Shown in pieces: positions 26,407-39,792 of a DNA stretch of 64,000 nt (positions are counted from its first letter, which is position 1; each line of letters begins with the position of its first letter). The stretch is taken from assembly GCA_015231885.1 (NCBI GenBank), contig JADGAT010000005.1, positions 1 to 64,000 on the forward strand. The letters are read 5' to 3'. The notes beneath the pieces were generated by a model. It searched no databases. It had not been told where the DNA came from and worked only from the letters and a program-made list of their open reading frames with translations. The position numbers and the translations under genes are program-made. This DNA is from SAR324 cluster bacterium (lineage in GTDB: Bacteria; SAR324; NAC60-12).

Positions 26407-29400
26407 TCACGCAGAGTGCGTGGTTTTTTTCTTTTTTTGCCTTTGTTTTTTTCGATCCCTGCTGGAAACATAGTTCTTCTTTCTGGCCGATGCTTTGGTG
26501 CGTGAGCGTGTTTGAGTATTATCGCCTTCAACCGTATCTGCGGAACTGTGATGGTAAGTGGGCTCTGGCGTTTGCGGGTCCACATGGAAGAATAGATAAC
26601 GAGGATGAGGCAATTTACCTCTATGGAAAAATTGGATAACCGATTCACGGGCTGTTTCGGTGATCAGTTTTTCAAATAAGGCAAATGCTTTTCTACGGTA
26701 CTCATCAATTGGTTTTTTCTGCGCATAGCCTGCCAAGCCTACTTCTTCTCGAAGATGATCCATTGACAGCAAGTGATTTTTCCAGCGCTCATCACCCGTC
26801 ATTAATAAAGTCTGACGTTGAATCAGAAGCAGCAGGGTTTCAAAAATTTCCTGCCGAAATACTGTATAGCTCTCTGAAAACTGCTGCCTGAATTCTGTTG
26901 AGATCTGATTGAGAAATTGGGCAATAGTTTCGTTTCCCTGAGCGGCACCATGCGTTTGGCAATATTCTCTAAAACGTTCAAACCAACCGTTACAAAAGTT
27001 TTGCAGTTTTTCCATTTCCGGATATGGAAAAGCCCAGGCCTCTGGTTCATAGTGCAACGCCAGCTGCAAATAGATGCCAATGACTTCTAAAAGTTCGCTA
27101 TCCTGGTATGTGTGAAAAAAGTCCTCTTGGAAGTGGTTGATTTTTGATTCATAATTATCTTCAGCAACTTGGTAGAGTTTTTGGATGATCTCGTCCTGCT
27201 GTAAAGTTGGAGTCTCCCATTCTTCATCAAGATGCATGTTGAAAAGATGAAAAAATTCCTGCTTGAATTCATCCCATTTCCATTGATCCTGGAATTTGTC
27301 GCTGCAGAACTCATCCATGATTGCCTCAATCATTTCGGCGCACATGTCCAAAAACCCATGGTGTATGTCATCACTCAAAATGGCTCGACGCTTCTCATAG
27401 ATGATGTTGCGTTGACGTTCCATGATGTCATCATATTCGAGCACATTTTTACGTGCAGTGAAATGCATGCCTTCCACTTTTTTCTGTGCATTGGCAATGG
27501 CTTTGCTTACAAAAACATGCTCAATGGGCATGTCTTCTTCGATTTGGAGGCGATCCATCCACCTGGCCAGTTTTTCTCCTCCAAAAATGCGGAGCAAGTG
27601 GTCTTCCATGGAAAGAAAAAATTGTGATTCTCCAGGGTCTCCCTGTCTTCCTGACCGTCCACGCAGCTGATTGTCAATACGGCGGCTGTCATGACGTGCT
27701 GTTCCCAGAATGAAGAGACCTCCTAGTTCTAGCACCTCAGACGCCAGCTTGATGTCAGTTCCTCGACCGGCCATGTTGGTAGCAATGGTGACAGCACCCT
27801 TTTGCCCTGCTTGCTTAATGATCTCAGCTTCTTGTTCATGAAATTTTGCATTGAGCACGCGATGTGAAATATTCTTTTGGTTCAGGCGGTTGCTGATCAA
27901 TTCTGATGTTTCCACCGAGACGGTTCCTACCAGAACAGGCTGTCCCTTTTCATGCAACTCCACCACTTTATTGGCGATGGCATTGTACTTGGCATCCTCT
28001 GTCTTGTAGATAACATCGGGATGATCCTGACGAATGATGGTTTGGTTTGTTGGAATGACCACAACCCCCAGGTTATAGATTTTCTTGAATTCATCTTTTT
28101 CGGTTTCAGCGGTTCCCGTCATGCCTGCCAATTTTCGATAAAGGCGAAAATAGTTTTGGAAGGTGACCGAAGCCAATGTCTGGCTTTCCATTTCGACCCG
28201 AACCCGTTCTTTTGCTTCCAATGCCTGGTGCAGTCCATCACTGTAGCGCCGTCCCTGCATCAAACGGCCGGTGAAATCATCAACAATCACGACTTTACCA
28301 TTTTGTACGACATAATCGACATCTCGATTGAAGATCAAGTGTGCTTTCAATGCTTGATTGACATGATGCAATGTAGAGGTATTCACCCGGTCAAAGAGGC
28401 TTTTCAGTACTTCGACATGAGGGAGTATATGGGATTGCAGCAGTCTTGTTTTTTCTTCCCCGATGGTACTGCGTAATGCTTCCAGAAAGGCCTCAATGGT
28501 TTCATACTCCAAGTCTTTCATTGTTTTCAATTCAGGGAGCACAGATTTTATTTCCGGATTGGATTCCAAGGTGCTCAATCCTTTCTCAGAAATTCGAAAT
28601 GTGGGAAGCAGCAATCCCTGATATGCTTCTTTGAGGATGATAGATTTGAATTGAGCCGTTTGTTCTTCTCCAATTTTTTGAGAAAGATGAGCTAACAGGT
28701 CCTCCTCATGGCGGTATTCAATCCCTACGGTATTGTGTAACCCATTGATGATGGATTCGTCATGGATCTCTGATTCTAATTTTGCCAGACCTTCCTGGGT
28801 CAACTGATAGCGTTCCAGGTTATACAAAAGTTGTTCTATTTTCCCTGCACCACGATCCGTCAGGGCAACATACCTGGATTTTTCATCCAGCGTGTAATCG
28901 CCTTCACGCACAATATCGCGGTCTTCTTTTTCTTCCCAGTCTTCATCGATACCATAAGTTTCCTGCTGGGTCAGCTGCGGGACTTCTATTTTTTGGAGTT
29001 CGCGCTGCAGTTGGGATTTGTTGACCAATTGATTGATGGTGACATATTTGTCTATGTTGTCATCAGTGGGGCCACTGATGATGAGTGGTGTTCGTGCTTC
29101 ATCAATGAGGATACTGTCTACCTCATCCACAATGGCAAACGCGAATTCACGCTGTACATAATCTGCAAGATCCATCTTCATATTGTCGCGTAAATAATCA
29201 AACCCGTATTCATTGTTAGTTCCGTAGGTGATGTCCTGTCTGTAATTGAATTGTCGGTCTGATTGGCTGGAGTCGTGCTGGATCAATCCAACGCTGATTC
29301 CCAGGAAATTATAAATCCTGCCCATCCACTCACTATCACGTTTTGCCAGGTAATCGTTGGGGGTCACGATGTGCACCCCTCTTCCCGTCAACGCATTCAG

Positions 29401-29964
29401 GTAAGAGGGACAGGTGGATGCCAGTGTTTTTCCTTCTCCTGTCTGCATTTCTGCGATATTCCCTTCGTGGAGCGCAATTCCACCGATCAGCTGCACATCA
29501 TAATGTCGTTCCCCAAGCACTCTTACTGCGGCTTCGCGAACTAGAGCAAATGCCTCAGGCAAAACGGAGTCCAGTATTTCAGAAGCATCTTCCTGGATAT
29601 GTCGCTTTGCTGCAAACCTTGTTTCTTCTAGCTGTTCTTCCAGAATTCTGTTTTCAATTTCTTTCAGTAATTCGTCTTGAGATAAATAATTTTTACCCTT
29701 CAGCCCTTTCAGTTGTTTCCAGATCGTATCGGAGGAAAGTTCAGATTCCAGTTTAAATAAGCTTTGCTCTGTTAAAGTAAACCGTGTATTTTCTCGGACA
29801 CGCTTTTTCAATGCTTCTGTTCTGGTAGGAAATTCATGATCCTGCAGTTTTTGTATTTCCGGTTCGAGAGCATTGATTTTCGCTACGATTTTATGGTAGC
29901 GCTTCAGTGTCTTTTCGTTTTCATTGCCAAACAGATTAGAGACTTTTGTTAAAAGGGATGCCAT
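26407..29964 (-). CDS. secA: Preprotein translocase ATPase SecA (extra-long form)
   Basis: Motor ATPase that drives proteins through SecYEG. It has 1185 residues compared with about 900 in E. coli. Walker A is QTGEGKT at 174-180, against about 102-109 in E. coli, showing an N-terminal insertion of about 70 residues. Other marks are VDEVDSILIDEARTP, RDVDYVVQNGKVVIVDDFTG, YRKLAGMTGTAETE and QLRGRSGRQGDPG. A second insertion of about 200 residues, rich in Glu and Leu, lies between about residues 310 and 530 in the preprotein cross-linking domain. The C-terminus is strongly basic (RKKQRQKKKK) and lacks the usual zinc-binding cysteines. No other full-length secA is seen here. Confidence 0.95.
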   Translation of the reverse strand: MASLLTKVSNLFGNENEKTLKRYHKIVAKINALEPEIQKLQDHEFPTRTEALKKRVRENTRFTLTEQSLFKLESELSSDTIWKQLKGLKGKNYLSQDELLKEIENRILEEQLEETRFAAKRHIQEDASEILDSVLPEAFALVREAAVRVLGERHYDVQLIGGIALHEGNIAEMQTGEGKTLASTCPSYLNALTGRGVHIVTPNDYLAKRDSEWMGRIYNFLGISVGLIQHDSSQSDRQFNYRQDITYGTNNEYGFDYLRDNMKMDLADYVQREFAFAIVDEVDSILIDEARTPLIISGPTDDNIDKYVTINQLVNKSQLQRELQKIEVPQLTQQETYGIDEDWEEKEDRDIVREGDYTLDEKSRYVALTDRGAGKIEQLLYNLERYQLTQEGLAKLESEIHDESIINGLHNTVGIEYRHEEDLLAHLSQKIGEEQTAQFKSIILKEAYQGLLLPTFRISEKGLSTLESNPEIKSVLPELKTMKDLEYETIEAFLEALRSTIGEEKTRLLQSHILPHVEVLKSLFDRVNTSTLHHVNQALKAHLIFNRDVDYVVQNGKVVIVDDFTGRLMQGRRYSDGLHQALEAKERVRVEMESQTLASVTFQNYFRLYRKLAGMTGTAETEKDEFKKIYNLGVVVIPTNQTIIRQDHPDVIYKTEDAKYNAIANKVVELHEKGQPVLVGTVSVETSELISNRLNQKNISHRVLNAKFHEQEAEIIKQAGQKGAVTIATNMAGRGTDIKLASEVLELGGLFILGTARHDSRRIDNQLRGRSGRQGDPGESQFFLSMEDHLLRIFGGEKLARWMDRLQIEEDMPIEHVFVSKAIANAQKKVEGMHFTARKNVLEYDDIMERQRNIIYEKRRAILSDDIHHGFLDMCAEMIEAIMDEFCSDKFQDQWKWDEFKQEFFHLFNMHLDEEWETPTLQQDEIIQKLYQVAEDNYESKINHFQEDFFHTYQDSELLEVIGIYLQLALHYEPEAWAFPYPEMEKLQNFCNGWFERFREYCQTHGAAQGNETIAQFLNQISTEFRQQFSESYTVFRQEIFETLLLLIQRQTLLMTGDERWKNHLLSMDHLREEVGLAGYAQKKPIDEYRRKAFALFEKLITETARESVIQFFHRGKLPHPRYLFFHVDPQTPEPTYHHSSADTVEGDNTQTRSRTKASARKKNYVSSRDRKKQRQKKKKTTHSA

Positions 29965-31560: not shown

Positions 31561-32913
31561 TTGAACTATCATCAAACCGCCATACAAGAGAAGTTAAGTA
31601 AGCCCATTCAAATCCTCTATGTAAAGGTTGCCAGTCAAATGACAAAGATCTTTTTACAGGTACTGGAAGATCTTTTGGGGCTTCAAGTCATTGCCGAGAG
31701 AGAGGACAGCGACTTCTTCCCCACATTGTCTGCTAAAAAAACAGTACTGGGAACCGTTGATATCATCGGAACGGTCGTGGGTTCTTTTGGAATTTCGATG
31801 GATGAGCAGACATTGTCTGATCTTTTAGGAATGGGAGTGCTGCCTGCGTTAGACGAGCGCGGAGATATCAGACAGGGCTGTGGTGATTTCCTCAAAGAAG
31901 TCTTGAATCAAGTCAGCGCTCCTTGTATCAAATTGCTGCAACCTGAATACGATGTGACCTTGTTTGCTCCTAAAGTTATTTATGGGGAGGCTCAGTTTCC
32001 CAAAAGTATCTGCATTGAGCGAACAATGATGACCGATCATGGTGAGTTTTATTTTTATTTTTACCTCGATTTCACCAGGCTGGATTTAGCTGACTTAGCA
32101 AAAGAATTGACTGCAGCAAATTCTCAACTCCTCGAAGTCAATGAAAAACTGCAGCAATCGGAAAAATTATTACGAGCACACAATGAGACCATGCAGGAGG
32201 ATTTAGCACTTGCCGTGGACTTTCAACAGTCCCTTTTACCTAAAATCCCCAGAATTGGCTTCCTGCAGATAGTATCGTGCTACATTCCTTATTCGGGAGT
32301 TTCTGGCGATATTTATGATATTTCTCTCAATCGTGAAGGAGACATCAGTATTTTTTTGGGAGATGCGACAGGGCATGGAATTGCAGCAGCATTCATGACG
32401 ATGATGGTCCAAATAGGACTGGATAATATTCCACAAAACTTTCCTGTTCATGAGGTGATGCATCACTTGAATATGCTGCTGTCTGTTCGTGATACTGGAA
32501 AATCATTGACATCGGTCTTTGTCAGAGTTTCTCAAGCCGGGGCATTGTCAGTCGCTCAGGCAGGGCATCCTCCATTGATTCTGATTCCTGCGGATGAGTC
32601 CGAGGTCACTTTATTTGAGGAAGGAGGATTGGCCCTGGGATTGTTTAAAGATGAACCCATTCCTTATGTACAGGAAACCTGTCAATTGAAGGATGGTGAT
32701 AAATTTTTTATTTATACAGATGGTATCATTGAATGGGAAAATGAAAACAAAGTGCGCTTTGGAGTGAATCGCCTGGTTGAATTTTTCAAAGCAAACAGGA
32801 GGTTGGCACTGGATGTGATGCTCGATGCCCTCATGAAGCATCTTCATGATTTTTCCCAGGGAATAGAAAGTGGAGATGATGTCTCCATCCTTGGATTTCA
32901 GTTCATGGAATAA
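31561..32913 (+). CDS. CheX-like domain fused to SpoIIE-type PP2C phosphatase
   Basis: A 450-residue signalling phosphatase. Residues about 15-175 resemble a CheX/CheC-type domain: the strand VDIIGTVVGSFGISM, the helix around LSDLLGMGV and the acidic-polar helix GCGDFLKEVLNQVSAP in place of the usual E..N active pair (D and N are present). A coiled coil (about 180-215) links to a PP2C domain at about 220-450 with GVSGDIYDI, LGDATGHGIAAAF, IYTDGIIEWE and GDDVSIL. The start is a TTG with GAGG eight bases upstream. The CheY-like gene follows 91 bases later. Confidence 0.88.
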   Translation: MNYHQTAIQEKLSKPIQILYVKVASQMTKIFLQVLEDLLGLQVIAEREDSDFFPTLSAKKTVLGTVDIIGTVVGSFGISMDEQTLSDLLGMGVLPALDERGDIRQGCGDFLKEVLNQVSAPCIKLLQPEYDVTLFAPKVIYGEAQFPKSICIERTMMTDHGEFYFYFYLDFTRLDLADLAKELTAANSQLLEVNEKLQQSEKLLRAHNETMQEDLALAVDFQQSLLPKIPRIGFLQIVSCYIPYSGVSGDIYDISLNREGDISIFLGDATGHGIAAAFMTMMVQIGLDNIPQNFPVHEVMHHLNMLLSVRDTGKSLTSVFVRVSQAGALSVAQAGHPPLILIPADESEVTLFEEGGLALGLFKDEPIPYVQETCQLKDGDKFFIYTDGIIEWENENKVRFGVNRLVEFFKANRRLALDVMLDALMKHLHDFSQGIESGDDVSILGFQFME

Positions 32914-33004
32914 ATGGATTGAAAGTATTGATCGATTTCGGTAAAAAAGATATTTATTCAACCATTCAATAACAACCGTACCATCCTAAAGAATAAGCTG
33001 CACT

Positions 33005-33385
33005 ATGGCACGAATATTACTTGTAGACGACAGTGCCTTCATTGTTGGAACGTTGAGACCCTTTTTAGAAAGTGAAGGTCATGAAATCGTAGCAGTAGGC
33101 ACTGATGGCAACGAAGGAGTGGCATTATTCCAGGAACACCATCCCGATTTAGTCTTACTGGATATTACGATGCCAAATAAGGATGGTCGGGCTTGTCTGG
33201 AAGAAATTCTAGAATTGGATGCCAAGGCCAAAGTGATCATGGTTTCTGCAATCCAGGATATGAAAATTTTTATGGAGTGCATGAAAAAAGGAGCTCTCAA
33301 CTTTATCCAGAAACCCCTCAAATTGAGAGATCCTGCCTTTTGTCTGGAGTTTCGAAAACTCATTGATGAGGCACTGACGCACTGA
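33005..33385 (+). CDS. Single-domain response regulator (CheY-like)
   Basis: A stand-alone receiver of 126 residues with the full active site: acidic pair LLVDDS, phosphoacceptor in LVLLDITMPNKDG, conserved Ser in MVSAIQD and lysine in FIQKPLK. There is no output domain. Its position directly after the CheX-PP2C gene suggests that it is either the substrate of the CheX-like domain or its control input. No histidine kinase gene of classic type is adjacent. Confidence 0.93.
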   Translation: MARILLVDDSAFIVGTLRPFLESEGHEIVAVGTDGNEGVALFQEHHPDLVLLDITMPNKDGRACLEEILELDAKAKVIMVSAIQDMKIFMECMKKGALNFIQKPLKLRDPAFCLEFRKLIDEALTH

Positions 33386-33517
33386 CCTACTCATTTGTTT
33401 TCCTACTTTCTATTCCCTCATAGAAAAATAACCGGTATTTGAATTATGCCTCTGTTTTTGGAATTCAGGGCACATCCCCTTATTGTTATCAGACGGTACA
33501 GTTGCGGCTACATAATC

Positions 33518-34462
33518 ATGCGGCCTTTGATCATCATTTGCCAGCTTGCTGTAATCTTTTTATTCTGCATGATGCCAACAACAACGTTTGCGATGGATGT
33601 GGTGTCTGAAGGAACCGTATGGTGGATTTGGCCCATTCTGCTGTTTGTCTTAACATTTCTGATTGGTGTGTTTGGAGTGATGGCCGGAATTGGAGGAGGG
33701 GTTCTGTTTGTTCCTCTGGTCAGCAGTTTTTTTCCGTTCCATATCGATTTTGTCAGAGGCGCCGGATTGTTGATCGCCTTGGGCAGCTCTCTGGCAGCAG
33801 CTCCCAATTTGCTGCAAAAAAACCTAGCCAGCCTCAAATTGGCCATTCCCTGTGCTTTAGTGGCATCCACCTTTTCTATTATTGGCGCTTTTGGCGGATT
33901 GTGGCTTTCCAGTATAAATTCTGCTTATATTCACACAAGCCTTGGAGTGCTGGTTCTTTTAGTTGTAGCTCTCATGCTTGCTTCAAAACGAACGGATTAC
34001 CCGCAAGTCCAACCAGGGAATTTCTTAACAGAAGCATTGCAACTCAACGGGATTTACTTTGAACCCACCCAAAACAGAGAAATTTCATGGACGGTGCACA
34101 GAACTGGAAAAGGGTTGGTTGCTTTTAGTGTGGTTGGGGTGTTGGCTGGTATGTTTGGATTGGGGGCCGGCTGGGCCAATGTTCCTGTTTTGAACTTATT
34201 GATGGGCGCTCCGTTGAAAGTAGCGGTTGCTACCAGCAGTTTTTCACTTTCTATCACCGATACTACGGCGGCCTGGATTTATTTTAACAAAGGAGGGGTT
34301 TTACCCATTATCATAATCCCTTCTATGGCAGGCATTATGCTAGGTGCGAAGATTGGAAGCCGTTTGTTATCCAAAGTGGAACCAGCCCTTATTCGAAAAA
34401 TGGTCATTGGTGTTTTGCTGTTGGCCGGTCTTCGCTCTTTATTGAAGGGATTTGGGATATGA
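33518..34462 (+). CDS. TauE/SafE-family sulfite/anion permease
   Basis: Inner-membrane transporter of about 314 residues with eight or nine hydrophobic helices in two related halves; each half has the family glycine motif (VFGVMAGIGGGVLFVPL and AGMFGLGAGWANVPVL). Members export or import sulfite, sulfoacetate or other organic anions. I favour the ATG at 33518, which begins a signal-like helix; the frame is open to an ATG at 33446. It overlaps the next membrane protein gene by four bases and converges on the hydrogenase operon. Confidence 0.88.
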   Translation: MRPLIIICQLAVIFLFCMMPTTTFAMDVVSEGTVWWIWPILLFVLTFLIGVFGVMAGIGGGVLFVPLVSSFFPFHIDFVRGAGLLIALGSSLAAAPNLLQKNLASLKLAIPCALVASTFSIIGAFGGLWLSSINSAYIHTSLGVLVLLVVALMLASKRTDYPQVQPGNFLTEALQLNGIYFEPTQNREISWTVHRTGKGLVAFSVVGVLAGMFGLGAGWANVPVLNLLMGAPLKVAVATSSFSLSITDTTAAWIYFNKGGVLPIIIIPSMAGIMLGAKIGSRLLSKVEPALIRKMVIGVLLLAGLRSLLKGFGI

Positions 34463-34872
34463 CACAAGAGTTTGAAAACCTGGAATGTCAGCAGGGGTAT
34501 GCGATGCTGCTCAAGCGAATCAGTAATCTGGGACTGGTGCTCTTATTTCTCACCTTCGGCCTTTATATCTTCGGAGTGCTGGAACCGTTGATTCCGTTAG
34601 AAAAACTGCCTCAGTACTGGAACTTACCGCTCAATGAGTACATTGAACAATCGGGTGCCCCGATAGGCTGGGGGTGGTTGAATCATCTCGGAAATGGAGA
34701 TTACTTGAGCTTCATCGGTCTGATCCTTCTTGCGGCTGTAGACGGGATCTGTTATGTTTTTCTATTTATCTTTTTTACCAAAAAAAAGAAACGCTTGTAC
34801 ATGGCTCTGGTGTCTGTTGAGCTTTTCCTGATTTTGCTGTCAGCATCGAACCTGATGCAATTTGGGCATTGA
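34459..34872 (+). CDS. Small membrane protein partner of the TauE permease
   Basis: A 137-residue protein with three hydrophobic helices (ISNLGLVLLFLTFGLYIFGV, LSFIGLILLAAVDGICYVFLFIFF and LYMALVSVELFLILLS) and a central loop ending in GWGWLNHLGNGDY. The four-base overlap with the permease gene points to a shared function. The layout recalls DUF1634-type proteins next to TauE permeases, but I cannot confirm that family by eye. It converges on the hydrogenase small-subunit gene with a three-base gap. Confidence 0.7.
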   Translation: MTQEFENLECQQGYAMLLKRISNLGLVLLFLTFGLYIFGVLEPLIPLEKLPQYWNLPLNEYIEQSGAPIGWGWLNHLGNGDYLSFIGLILLAAVDGICYVFLFIFFTKKKKRLYMALVSVELFLILLSASNLMQFGH

Positions 34873-34875
34873 ATA

Positions 34876-35799
34876 CTATATTTTATTCTTAATGGTTCGA
34901 GGGTCTGCATAGCGATGGTACATGATTTGCCGTGGAAAACGTTCGCCAGCACATCCAATACAAGGGTGCCCGGCCCGGATGCAATTGTTGGTATTGCTGT
35001 TGTATCCAACGGTAAAGCAATTATTTTTAGTGGCCGGTCCCTGGCATCCTAACTTGAATAGGCATCCATCATCTCCAATGAATTCCGCAAAAAAGTTTTC
35101 TTGGTAGTCTGCATGGTAAATGCAGCGCTCATGGACACTCCTCCTAAAAAAATGTTTGGGCATCCGATGGTTGTCCATTTTTGGCAGAGTCCCTTTTTTG
35201 ATATAATGGAGTAGGGTGTAGGTGATATGTTCGGGCTTCATGGGGCAGCTGGGCAAGTTGACAAGAGAAGGTGGAATATTGCGATAATTCATATACTCCT
35301 GGAGTGTCATGGCTCCGGTCAATGTACCTTGCATTTTTGTTACACCGCCATGCACGGCGCAGGTGCCTCCTGCCACATTGACTGTTGCTCTGGTAGCCAG
35401 CTTGTCCACCCAGTCGGTGAGAGGTTTATCACCAATCATGCAGGCATGCGGCAATTTGACTGGAATGGCTCCTTCCAGTACAAAAATGTATTCTTGTTCA
35501 GATTCGAGCAATGTATCGATGACTTGCAGAACCTGATGCCCGGTGGCTGCAGAAAGATCAGGATGAAAAACCATTTTAAAGAACTGAGTGAGCAGCTCCA
35601 TCACAGGAACATCTTCCATGTCCAGAAAAGCTGAGGAGCATCCAGAACAAGAGGTCCCATGAAACCAAAGAACATAAGGCTTGACAGGGGTCTCCTGAGC
35701 CGCCAGTAAATCATCAAAAGAAAGAAAAGTGGATGCTCCTACGGCAATAACTGCCTGATACATTTTTTTGAGCGCTTCTCTTCGAGTGATGTCTTTCAT
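34876..35799 (-). CDS. [NiFe] hydrogenase small subunit, Tat-exported
   Basis: Electron-transfer subunit of about 307 residues. The N-terminus has a twin-arginine motif (ITRREALKK) and hydrophobic stretch, so the enzyme faces the periplasm. Proximal-cluster cysteines are in TSCSGC, GGTCAVHGG and PSCPM. The distal set is HERC-x-x-H, GCLFKLGCQGP and the downstream Cys. In the medial set NNCIRAGHPCIGC, a Cys occupies a place where standard group 1 enzymes have Trp-Pro, suggesting a third [4Fe-4S] rather than [3Fe-4S] cluster (inference). There is no C-terminal membrane anchor. I start at the ATG at 35799 because of AAGGAG seven bases upstream. It lies downstream of, not before, the large-subunit gene. 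Confidence 0.93.
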   Translation of the reverse strand: MKDITRREALKKMYQAVIAVGASTFLSFDDLLAAQETPVKPYVLWFHGTSCSGCSSAFLDMEDVPVMELLTQFFKMVFHPDLSAATGHQVLQVIDTLLESEQEYIFVLEGAIPVKLPHACMIGDKPLTDWVDKLATRATVNVAGGTCAVHGGVTKMQGTLTGAMTLQEYMNYRNIPPSLVNLPSCPMKPEHITYTLLHYIKKGTLPKMDNHRMPKHFFRRSVHERCIYHADYQENFFAEFIGDDGCLFKLGCQGPATKNNCFTVGYNSNTNNCIRAGHPCIGCAGERFPRQIMYHRYADPRTIKNKI

Positions 35800-35810: not shown

Positions 35811-37364
35811 TTAGTGAACAGAGCACGCCAGGCAGGGATCGGTAGAACGAACAATCCGTGCCAATTCAATAGGATGATCCGTGTCGTTGACGTTGGTGCC
35901 AAGGAGCATTTTTTCCACAGGACCTGGTTTTCCTTGAGAATCTCTAGGTGATATATTCCAGGTAGTTGGCACAATGAGTTCATAATTTTGAATATAGCCC
36001 TTACTGTCTGTTTCAATCCAATGGGCCAGTGCGCCTCGGGTGGCTTCTGTCAAACCATAACCCCGAGCATTCCTGGGTGTTTCTCCTTCCACAAAAGCTG
36101 GTTCGTTAGGGCTCAGTTCTTCGATTTGTTCTTTGATGCGTTCCATCGTCTCACTGGCCAGAATGAAGCGGCTCAAATGCCTTCCCATCACCGAAGGGTA
36201 GTCTGCCAAAGTGATGCCCAATTTGCGGTTGAATTGGTCGACTTTCTGCTGAAGCCTGGGGTTGGTTTTGCTGTGATACGTGTTGATCAATCGTGCGACT
36301 GGCCCGACTTCCATGGGTTCTCCATTGTACCTGGGGGCTTTGGCCCAACTGTATTTGCCGTTTGCCTTGTCACGCTCCTGCTCAAAACGATTCGGTGTGA
36401 TGGGCTTCAACTGAGTGGACATTAAAGGCTTAATGCCTGTTGAGGGTAAGTCTTCATAATAAGCATAGGTGTGGTCTTCTGAAATGAGATTCATATCCAG
36501 GGGTTGGTATTTTCCATGGATGGTTGCCCCTCCTGCAAAAGCAAAATGTTCCCCGTGTTTATCAGGAAAATAGGGATAAGACAACAGGTTTCCATAGCCC
36601 TTGCCTTCTTGAAAGTATCCTTTAAATTCTCCAAGCACCCCAAGCAGGTCATTGTAATATTTTTCTGTGATGAACTGTTCTGCCTTACGAAACCAGGTTT
36701 TATACTTTGCAATTTTTCCAAACGTGGGAATGGTTGTCACGCCTCCTGCTTCCAAAGTGACTGGGTGGGGAGCTTTTCCTCCAAAAATTGCCACCATCTT
36801 GTGCAGATCAGCCATTATAGCAAGAGAATCGGCATAGTTTTTGACAGCACTGATATTCAACTCATCATTTTTGCTGTAGTCGGCTTCATATCTTGGAAAA
36901 AAAGGAGTTGCCGGAAAGATTTCACTGCTTTTCAATTCATGAGCAATCCATGTTTTGATTCCCAGCAGAGTTTTGTCTTTCCCCTGGTATTTCAGACAGG
37001 AGGTGATATCAATGAAATCCAGTGAGCAAAGCTGGTAAAAATGTAATAGGTAATCTTGCAGATGGTAAGCTGCTGTGATCAGACTGCGGAGAAGCTGGCC
37101 ATTGGGATTAGGCTTCATCTTCATCGCATTTTCCAAAGCATGAGATGCGGCTTCGGCATGGGCGTACGGACAGATACCGCAGACTCGTTGGGTGACATGC
37201 TGAGCAACCCGGACATCGTATCCAATCAGAGCCTTTTCGATGCCGCGAAACATCTCGGCAGAGGCTCTTGCGTCAACAATAATCCCATTTTCGGCAGAAG
37301 TTCTGATTTTCAAATGACCCTCAATGCGGGTCATTGGATCAATCACAATACGTTTTGTCGCCAT
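35811..37364 (-). CDS. [NiFe] hydrogenase large subunit lacking the C-terminal tail
   Basis: Catalytic subunit of 517 residues holding the Ni-Fe(CN)2CO site. The L1 motif is RVCGICPYAH (C62, C65) and the L2 motif DPCLACSVH (C511, C514). In most [NiFe] enzymes a peptide of about 15 residues after the L2 histidine is cut off by a maturation protease; here the stop codon follows that histidine directly. N-terminal IDPMTRIEGHLKI is typical. The small-subunit gene follows 11 bases after the stop. No hyp maturation genes and no protease gene are in the window. The gene is divergent from the dihaem sensor gene. Confidence 0.95.
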   Translation of the reverse strand: MATKRIVIDPMTRIEGHLKIRTSAENGIIVDARASAEMFRGIEKALIGYDVRVAQHVTQRVCGICPYAHAEAASHALENAMKMKPNPNGQLLRSLITAAYHLQDYLLHFYQLCSLDFIDITSCLKYQGKDKTLLGIKTWIAHELKSSEIFPATPFFPRYEADYSKNDELNISAVKNYADSLAIMADLHKMVAIFGGKAPHPVTLEAGGVTTIPTFGKIAKYKTWFRKAEQFITEKYYNDLLGVLGEFKGYFQEGKGYGNLLSYPYFPDKHGEHFAFAGGATIHGKYQPLDMNLISEDHTYAYYEDLPSTGIKPLMSTQLKPITPNRFEQERDKANGKYSWAKAPRYNGEPMEVGPVARLINTYHSKTNPRLQQKVDQFNRKLGITLADYPSVMGRHLSRFILASETMERIKEQIEELSPNEPAFVEGETPRNARGYGLTEATRGALAHWIETDSKGYIQNYELIVPTTWNISPRDSQGKPGPVEKMLLGTNVNDTDHPIELARIVRSTDPCLACSVH

Positions 37365-37581
37365 GCTCTCTCCCAGTTCCCCCTGGTAAGTAGAAGTTTA
37401 CAGTTTAGCATTTATTTGGTGTTTGGCAACCTCAAATAGAATTATTTTTATTTTCCAAAAAAAACAGAAAAATGTTCATTTTCCTTTCCTTACTGTTCCA
37501 AATGGGGTAGTTCATACAATAAAAGTGCAGGGGGAAATAATTTGCAAAACGGGCCGACATCACACTTTATTTCAGTTTGTC

Positions 37582-39792
37582 ATGTCTGAATCTGTCGTCA
37601 AACAAACCCATTCCATCGTTTTCCGCACATTTGCCTTAGTGGTTGTCAGCGCATTCCTAGTGGCAGTCATTGCAGTCTTTATCTTTCAAACCATTGAAAG
37701 TAAAATCCTGGAAGAAAAAGGCATTGCAACAGGATACAGCATCCTCGATACATTCATCGAACAATCCAAAGATTCCATCGAAAAAGGGCAGCGAAAATCA
37801 TTTCAAATCGTGATGGACAACATTGCTAATATTGCCAATGTTGAGGAAACGGCCTTGTATTCTCACACAGGATTGATGATCTATAAATCGAGAGAAGTGA
37901 CCGTAGGATTTCCTTTTGTCCATGATCCTGAGACTAAAAAATTTTACAATCCCAGTGAAAAAATTTACCAGGAAACCAGAGGACGATATGTGAGGGAGGA
38001 TTGGAGGATTCGTGATCTATCTCAGGGAGAGAGTTGCAAAAAATACATCCGTGAGAGAAACAAACAGGAGTTGCCATGTACAGCTTGCCATTACCATCTG
38101 AATGAGAGCTTGCAGTTTAATGCAGCTGGCAGAGCCCATCAGGTATTTGAGAACCGCGTCGATTTCTTCCAGAGGTTGAAAGTTGAGAAGGATTGTGTGA
38201 TCTGTCATACTCACTGGAATGACCACGAGACTGCAGGATATCTCAGAGTCACTCTCGATAAACAATTCATCCATGAGCAGGAATCCGAGAACCTGGTGGG
38301 GATCGGTTCGATCCTGACAGCAGCATTGATACCCAGCTTCATTATGATCGTTTTTATTTTTCGCAATATGGTGGGGAAGTTGAATCAGAGGGACGAACAC
38401 ATTGGCCAGATTTTAACAAATCTGGAGGAGGCCAATGTCGAACTGGCCGAGGCTAATCAACTCAAAGAAGAATATAATAAAATCCTGGAGCAAAAAGTAT
38501 CAGAACGGACCCATGAATTGAAAGTGGAGAAGCAATACACAGAACAACAGCTTTTTGAATTACAGGCCAGTTACAACAAGCTGGAAGATCTGGACAATCT
38601 CAAGGAACGATTCCTGGAGCAGATGAATTCCTTGAGCCAGACCCATTTTCCTTATTTGCGGGAAAAGCTGGAAACATTGCTGGATCACCCTGCTGATGAT
38701 CCCCAAAAACTGATCTCACAGGCAGTCCGGGAAATGCACACGATTGATGAAACACTGGTGCCGTTCCAATCCTTGTATTTGTCAGAGCAGGCCATTCAAA
38801 GTAAAAATGTACTGTTGGCAGATACCGAAAAGAAACAGCAGATTATTGCTAAAATGGCCCTGGGAGGCACTGGGGTGGAGCTTGATATTGCTTCAAGCCT
38901 GGAAGAGGGTCTGCAGCTTCTCGAAGAAAAAGTGTATGACATCATCTGCACCAATGCAGAAATGATTGAGTTGAGTGAAAGAGCTGTTGAGCAATACCCT
39001 GAAATCAAATCGGTTTTCATGACTTCAGATGATGCGTCAACCTACCTGGCAACACTGCAGCAGTATCCGTTTTTGTCCAATATTGTTTCACGGATTGATG
39101 AAGACCGAACCTTCACCTTGAAAAATATCACCACCACGATTCGTAAGTTGATCACCAACGATTATTTTGGATTGGAAAAATATTTGAACTGGGGTGTGGA
39201 AGTCCATGAAATCCCTGTGACCGGCAGCAAAACCCGTTCAGATTTAGTAGATCAAATGGAAGAGGATTTCCAGAAGCTTGGAGTGAGGAAGCAGATCATT
39301 AATAAATGTTCGGCAGTTGCAGAGGAACTGATGATGAATGCCATTTATGATGCTCCTATTGATGCTGAAGGAAATTCGCTGTATAACCATTTGCCCAGAA
39401 CCACGGAAGTGGTGTTGAATGCAGAAGAGCAAGGGGTTTTTCGTTATGCCTGTGACGGTCTGTTGGTGGCTATTTCGGTCAAAGATCCGTTTGGTGCGTT
39501 TGGGCGGGATACCATCCTCCATTATCTGGAAAGCTGCTATAAAGGGAGATCCGGATCATTGCAAGAGGGCAAAGGAGGAGCAGGCAGGGGACTTTTTTAT
39601 ATTATGGAAACAGCAGATCTGATGGTATTCAATATCAAACCTAAAATACAAACAGAAGTGATTGCCATTTTTAATATAGACCCCAACAAGCCAAAGCGCA
39701 CCAAAGGCACTTCTTTCCATTATTTTTATCAAGAGAAACAGAAAGCGTCTCCTTCGTTTCAAGCAGACAATACATTCTCTACTGATTTGTAA
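37582..39792 (+). CDS. Dihaem membrane sensor with GHKL (anti-sigma-type) ATPase output
   Basis: A signalling protein of about 736 residues. One membrane helix (FALVVVSAFLVAVIAVFIF) and a second (about residues 235-258) bracket a periplasmic domain with two haem c motifs, CTACH at 166-170 and CVICH at 205-209. In the cytoplasm a coiled coil (about 275-340) leads to a receiver-like segment without a clear phosphoacceptor, then a GHKL ATPase domain: N-box AEELMMNA, G1 DPFGAFG, G2 GKGGAGRGLFYI. I see no clear H-box, so the output resembles RsbW/SpoIIAB serine kinases rather than a histidine kinase. I start at the ATG at 37582; the frame is open to 37423 but that leader is not protein-like. The last codons lie antisense to an ald remnant. 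Confidence 0.82.
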   Translation: MSESVVKQTHSIVFRTFALVVVSAFLVAVIAVFIFQTIESKILEEKGIATGYSILDTFIEQSKDSIEKGQRKSFQIVMDNIANIANVEETALYSHTGLMIYKSREVTVGFPFVHDPETKKFYNPSEKIYQETRGRYVREDWRIRDLSQGESCKKYIRERNKQELPCTACHYHLNESLQFNAAGRAHQVFENRVDFFQRLKVEKDCVICHTHWNDHETAGYLRVTLDKQFIHEQESENLVGIGSILTAALIPSFIMIVFIFRNMVGKLNQRDEHIGQILTNLEEANVELAEANQLKEEYNKILEQKVSERTHELKVEKQYTEQQLFELQASYNKLEDLDNLKERFLEQMNSLSQTHFPYLREKLETLLDHPADDPQKLISQAVREMHTIDETLVPFQSLYLSEQAIQSKNVLLADTEKKQQIIAKMALGGTGVELDIASSLEEGLQLLEEKVYDIICTNAEMIELSERAVEQYPEIKSVFMTSDDASTYLATLQQYPFLSNIVSRIDEDRTFTLKNITTTIRKLITNDYFGLEKYLNWGVEVHEIPVTGSKTRSDLVDQMEEDFQKLGVRKQIINKCSAVAEELMMNAIYDAPIDAEGNSLYNHLPRTTEVVLNAEEQGVFRYACDGLLVAISVKDPFGAFGRDTILHYLESCYKGRSGSLQEGKGGAGRGLFYIMETADLMVFNIKPKIQTEVIAIFNIDPNKPKRTKGTSFHYFYQEKQKASPSFQADNTFSTDL

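Follow-up and report, generated by a model that had tools for sequence, protein, structure and literature searches.

A tail-free, Tat-type [NiFe] hydrogenase paired with periplasmic heme transducers, a probable H2 sensor outside the cytoplasm

The locus described here, from a SAR324 cluster bacterium, raises the question what a [NiFe] hydrogenase is used for when its large subunit ends directly with the L2 motif and its small subunit carries a twin-arginine (Tat) signal. The whole stretch of DNA that was analysed (64 kb, in the following called the window) contains the hydrogenase pair with these features:

34876..35799, minus strand: [NiFe] hydrogenase small subunit, 307 aa (PF14720 and PF01058, alignments, hydropathy)
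35698..35799, minus strand: Tat signal region MKDITRREALKKMYQAVIAVGASTFLSFDDLLAA, RR invariant in 7/7
35811..37364, minus strand: [NiFe] hydrogenase large subunit, tailless, 517 aa (PF00374)
35811..35840, minus strand: L2 motif DPCLACSVH and stop codon TAA (8-row alignment)
37158..37187, minus strand: L1 motif RVCGICPYAH, NiFe ligands (alignment; family membership via PF00374)

PF00374 covers the large subunit end to end (profile 1–508 of 508, E 6e-132), and its C terminus reads ...STDPCLACSVH with the TAA directly after it. A degenerate form of this motif plus stop occurs once in the 64-kb window and in none of 100 shuffles. A sequence-only reading of the locus had proposed that the tail is naturally absent and had named a frameshift or error, to be recognized by longer-tailed homologues, as the alternative. 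We found large-subunit homologues of 67% and 62% identity in two genomes of the window's own class and, among the matches listed from a scan for DPCxACxVH followed by a stop, five further ones of 58–62%. These seven close homologues, from the genomes G006 and G050, Thiocystis violacea DSM 208, Sedimenticola selenatireducens DSM 17993, Sulfurimonas, Helicobacteraceae and a deltaproteobacterial MAG, represent several phyla and all stop directly after the same histidine (7/7 at 58–67% identity, among the matches listed); none has a longer tail, and apart from conservative changes the L2 motif and stop are kept across the 8-row alignment. The genome to which the window belongs is indeed a draft in 241 contigs, which is all that we found in favour of a tail removed by sequencing or assembly error. 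As the seven homologues share the terminus and come from independent assemblies, isolates included, a frameshift is ruled out and the error explanation is refuted, its remaining probability being negligible.

With the stop codon abutting DPCLACSVH a maturation protease cut is needless, as had been proposed, and the large-before-small gene order is equally plain from the large subunit stop at 35811 and the small subunit ATG at 35799, 11 bases past the large subunit gene. The hyp genes and the HyaD-type protease that the same reading had suggested to look for are both present in the genome, beside another hydrogenase (LYDENGSYVHQLNTF) with a normal 15-residue tail, small-before-large order and a cytochrome b gene, which is a natural within-genome control; HypD is present elsewhere in this genome. 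Naturally tailless [NiFe] enzymes are described for groups 2b, 2d, 4c, 4e and 4g, a list that includes no Tat-exported group 1 type (PMC7294309), in agreement with the view that the missing tail is unusual for an exported enzyme. RH-type gas-channel substitutions were looked for in the large subunit and none was found beyond the Ile in CGIC. A third [NiFe] large subunit of the genome (G000:C196:23787-25127, seen as L004, L005 and L039) has a 26-residue tail (AIGQMPLVIELYDEEGNLVDSKSQYV), and only one HycI-family protease was found.

All cluster ligands are present in the small subunit, and hydropathy revealed no C-terminal membrane helix or anchor. Its N terminus contains TRREALKK, with the RR invariant in 7/7 of the aligned homologues. 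At the medial-cluster position the alignment places a Cys, which is found in all tailless-Tat small subunits inspected, as in HoxB; the tailed respiratory small subunits (C219 of the same genome, HybO from E. coli and HoxK from C. necator) have a Pro there and continue into a C-terminal extension, before which the tailless-Tat proteins end. The Cys is supportive rather than diagnostic because [NiFeSe] enzymes likewise have a Cys at the medial cluster. It predicts a third [4Fe-4S] cluster in the tailless-Tat small subunits, and the RH sensor carries three such clusters (PMC5665086). Convergent with the small-subunit gene are genes for a TauE/SafE-type permease and a small three-TM protein (33446–34872, plus strand); further away a SecA-like protein of 1185 aa is encoded (26407–29964, minus strand), apparently long for SecA with seemingly large insertions.

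On the other side of the large subunit gene the window encodes a transducer:

37365..37581, no strand: intergenic region of 217 bp between hydrogenase pair and transducer gene (ORF coordinates)
37582..39792, plus strand: membrane signal transducer, 736 residues (two TM segments; homologous to MCP/kinase transducers)
37687..38301, plus strand: periplasmic heme sensor domain, Cache/PAS-like predicted fold (AlphaFold, Foldseek)
38077..38091, plus strand: CxxCH heme motif 1 (CTACH), invariant in 7/7 close relatives
38194..38208, plus strand: CxxCH heme motif 2 (CVICH), invariant in 7/7 close relatives
38593..39789, plus strand: output module with a weak receiver-like part and ATPase-like motifs (AEELMMNAIYDAP, DPFGAF), recurring in related genomes

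Its gene is divergent from the hydrogenase pair. The probable start is the ATG at 37582, the ORF list having a TTG start at 37423; a promoter scan of the intergenic region was not clearly above chance and a terminator scan was uninformative. Both CxxCH motifs lie between the two TM segments and are invariant in the seven close domains, as is M152 (789-residue numbering). Motif 1 is located in an insert of the close members and is missing from the broader clade described below; motif 2 is retained across most of that clade, mostly as DCxRCH, and close and broad receptors have in common the pattern S(L/I)xxGQxxxF ... LYxxxGxxxxS ... DCxRCHxxW ... GGxL. In the AlphaFold model of the domain (pLDDT 81) helices and strands make up the core, and a short helix ahead of the last long strand holds the second CxxCH. 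Foldseek matched it with weak scores (TM-scores of about 0.2–0.6) to the extracytoplasmic PAS/Cache sensors YycG/WalK, CitA, GSU0935, GSU0582 and Tll0287; the topology, with the CxxCH before the last strand, agrees with that published for sCache_heme (PMC12889525) and with a Cache fold, which we regard as predicted from these weak structural scores. PF11845 (DUF3365) gave no match to the domain at E ≤ 1, and the profile match to Tll0287 (5B82) was weak (E 0.19). Among 52 genomes of the class the three hydrogenase loci give the top three matches to the domain (E ≤ 1e-33). The main exception to this pairing within the class is an orphan diheme-domain fragment (L172 1462-2067, G049:C101), possibly a relic, whose genome yielded no tailless hydrogenase.

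The window's transducer is not an MCP. In related genomes its output module is joined to other N-terminal parts; Pfam did not recognize the ATPase-like motifs and gave only a sub-threshold Response_reg match, and a model from the single sequence without alignment reached a pLDDT of 36. The same genome has some 21 MCP genes, and judging from these chemosensory signalling exists in the organism. Near the hydrogenase unit a gene for a CheX-like protein with SpoIIE phosphatase is followed by a CheY-like receiver gene (31561–33385, plus strand); that this phosphatase and regulator are partners of the ATPase-like transducer is only a suggestion.

The pairing itself is observed in all close relatives with sufficient flank: in the window, G006, G050, Thiocystis, Sedimenticola, Sulfurimonas and the deltaproteobacterial MAG (7/7) a transducer with two periplasmic CxxCH motifs stands directly beside the hydrogenase pair, and in the one close member with no transducer in view (L044) the contig stops 88 bases past the large subunit. 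Thiocystis, Sedimenticola and Sulfurimonas have the order large subunit, small subunit, diheme transducer. An MCP that shares the periplasmic domain comes after the pair in G006 and before it in G050, and the deltaproteobacterial MAG has a CheA-like kinase with Hpt as transducer, adjoined by a CheX gene. No gene for a cytochrome b or another electron carrier was found within the unit in the window or these relatives. In G006 hypD, hypA and hypF adjoin the unit and no HycI-family protease was found, which is only suggestive since a further hydrogenase-like large subunit is encoded in G006. HypE-like and HypX-like genes lie immediately upstream in Sulfurimonas (L068 1008-3699).

Protein-pattern scans of genome and viral contigs had given no relatives, and tblastn against plasmids reached at most 34% identity among the matches listed. 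A DNA scan for DPCxACxVH plus stop across about 85,000 species yielded at least 80 loci, at least 75 of them with a verified tailless large subunit. In at least about 50 loci the large subunit is 36–45% identical to that of the window, with a Tat-type small subunit where this is in view. Together with the window group they form one clade in a tree with references from E. coli, C. necator and the same class (no 1a/1b row), apart from the HoxC-type (2b) and the tailed group-1 sequences, although the most distant four rows join weakly (83/47) and the tree does not resolve its deep root; the HoxC-type rows group in a clade of their own (100/100), with weak support for the deep branching. Among the matches listed the clade includes Desulfobacterota, Planctomycetota, Verrucomicrobiota, Pseudomonadota, Riflebacteria and Campylobacterota.

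We called a locus informative when both subunits and at least 450 downstream bases were present (n = 44 among the matches listed). An MCP, heme motif or kinase beside the hydrogenase was found by script in 39 of these 44, and in 42 of the 44 once L050, L051 (second pair) and L068 were read individually (both among the matches listed). The two loci without linkage are L082, with only 528 bases visible, and L122, where an esterase gene stands instead and no transducer is in view. Pfam identified MCPsignal in 29 of 31 complete neighbour proteins among the matches listed. By comparison, in a small and taxonomically narrow control set MCP or heme-sensor linkage was seen at 0/10 tailed group-1 loci of the same class (stretches of 8–14 kb; Fisher p 1e-7 against the script count) and at 0/13 HoxBC-type (group-2b-type) loci. 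Five planctomycete loci (L045, L071, L072, L076, L107) have an MCP without CxxCH beside the tailless hydrogenase. In L096 (302-4249) the MCP gene sits between the small and large subunit genes, and a Verrucomicrobia contig (L051 1761-7244) carries two divergent tailless pairs ending in DPCLSCAVH and DPCLACAVH.

The adjacent diheme transducer thus points to the likely function of the tailless hydrogenase, and its consistent pairing with a heme receptor in unrelated bacteria suggests H2 sensing outside the cytoplasm, for example in order to swim toward H2. We consider it likely that the two subunits form a soluble periplasmic hydrogenase that serves the adjacent transducer as H2 sensor, with electrons from H2 reaching the receptor heme. 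From the anatomy, conservation, genetic linkage and clade described above we infer a mechanism in which Hyp proteins would insert the NiFe cofactor without C-terminal extension or protease, the heterodimer would be exported by Tat via the small-subunit signal, and electrons from H2 oxidation would pass along three [4Fe-4S] clusters. The distal cluster would then reduce the c-type heme(s) of the periplasmic Cache-like domain, and the change at the heme would alter sensor domain and output. Most relatives would respond by MCP signalling, and thereby by H2 taxis; one relative would use a CheA-like kinase as output and the window's organism the ATPase-like module. Potentials of -156 and -251 mV should be within reach of an H2-oxidising enzyme on thermodynamic grounds. 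These are the values for the c-heme receptor domains GSU0582/GSU0935, in which the axial ligand switches with the redox state (PMC8396549). Counting against a sensor are L122 with its missing transducer, and in the window the divergent, not co-operonic transducer gene and its non-MCP output.

The same genes might also encode an ordinary periplasmic uptake (respiratory) hydrogenase feeding a periplasmic cytochrome pool, with the neighbouring chemoreceptor independently sensing redox for energy taxis. The closest solved structures to the hydrogenase are the Desulfovibrio periplasmic [NiFe]/[NiFeSe] enzymes, anchor-free soluble periplasmic hydrogenases exist, and c-heme MCPs can sense redox potential (PMC8396549), but the recurring partner in a unit without electron-carrier gene is a transducer, this linkage is missing at the ten tailed group-1 loci of the control set, and a complete respiratory-type operon is already present in the same genome, which together make this explanation improbable. 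We give even less credence to a transducer for another ligand (NO, O2 or general redox) that would do no more than control or accompany the hydrogenase: a TM/HAMP-linked sCache_heme protein does bind NO tightly (PMC12889525), yet MCP outputs are directed at motility and not at hydrogenase expression, and the persistence of the linkage in different phyla, while the outputs vary, indicates that the constant input is the hydrogenase.

How the signal would pass from the hydrogenase to the receptor is a different matter. A coupling by direct protein contact, in which the receptor would respond to the conformation of the H2-reduced hydrogenase and the hemes would be accessory or secondary, is a variant of the sensor and not an alternative to it. 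Such a coupling is suspected for the cytoplasmic HoxBC-HoxJ as well, and the RH signalling route is still described as under investigation (PMC6978683). Since the planctomycete MCPs keep the linkage without CxxCH, heme transfer cannot be universal in the clade, and given this loss the heme may be a variation on a mechanism that generally works by direct contact. As CxxCH is nevertheless invariant in the close members and retained in most of the clade, we regard contact with merely accessory hemes as rather unlikely.

A near parallel is the regulatory [NiFe] hydrogenase HoxBC/HupUV (group 2b), which also has no C-terminal extension (HoxC ends with DPCMVCTVH), a Cys at the medial cluster and a link to signal transduction. 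In contrast to the pair described here it is cytoplasmic, has no Tat signal and acts with the kinase HoxJ instead of a membrane transducer with periplasmic heme domain, and its large subunit belongs to a different clade. The Tat-type small subunit, the L1/L2 motifs and the overall similarity are shared with the group 1 periplasmic [NiFe]/[NiFeSe] enzymes (1a/1b, Desulfovibrio type), from which the window's unit differs by the absence of the tail that an M52 protease cleaves, the large-before-small order, a transducer in place of the cytochrome partner and its separation in the tree from the tailed group-1 rows tested (1a/1b having no row). H2 sensing has also been proposed through MCPs for the putatively chemotactic [FeFe] group C2, an unrelated protein with a different metal centre, and via a signalling output for the putatively diguanylate-cyclase-linked [NiFe] group 2c; HydDB gives MCP linkage for [FeFe] C2 alone and no MCP-linked [NiFe] class (PMC5037454). 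Periplasmic c-type heme domains on MCPs or kinases are known from GSU0582/GSU0935, DcrA and sCache_heme (DUF3365/Tll0287), the last with the CxxCH in a short helix preceding the last strand (PMC12889525); unlike sCache_heme, the close members here add a second CxxCH in an insert and give no Pfam DUF3365 match. A consistent pairing with a hydrogenase, as seen here, is not reported in PMC8396549 and PMC12889525, from which the word hydrogenase is absent.

No description of such a [NiFe] sensor module was found in the open-licence papers searched, so its novelty is provisional. A table row in PMC12727194, in which 87 MCP genes make up one cluster in the vicinity of [NiFe] genes, is possibly the nearest, apparently undiscussed, trace of the linkage. 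A molecular H2 chemoreceptor was likewise not described in the literature searched. Anaerobes commonly exchange energy in the form of H2. Possible H2 chemotaxis with an unknown receptor was reported for a sulfate reducer in 2025 (PMC12004927). Candidate genes are present in the cultured strains Thiocystis violacea DSM 208, Sedimenticola selenatireducens DSM 17993 and Desulfobacter vibrioformis DSM 8776, which makes the question of the H2 chemoreceptor directly testable. We lean, if only narrowly, towards the wider view that the Tat-exported tail-free [NiFe] class is a dedicated periplasmic H2-sensing subunit of heme chemoreceptors serving true H2 taxis in many bacteria; these would then wire the electrons of an enzyme directly into a receptor heme. 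Natural Tat-exported hydrogenases without C-terminal extension also bear on the debate over the purpose of this extension (PMC7294309). Tailless large subunits without adjacent MCP occur outside the Tat-MCP clade as well, namely in the small-before-large pairs L108 and L116, which have no Tat signal, in the actinobacterial forms L103, L112 and L120, and in the Denitrovibrio form L105.
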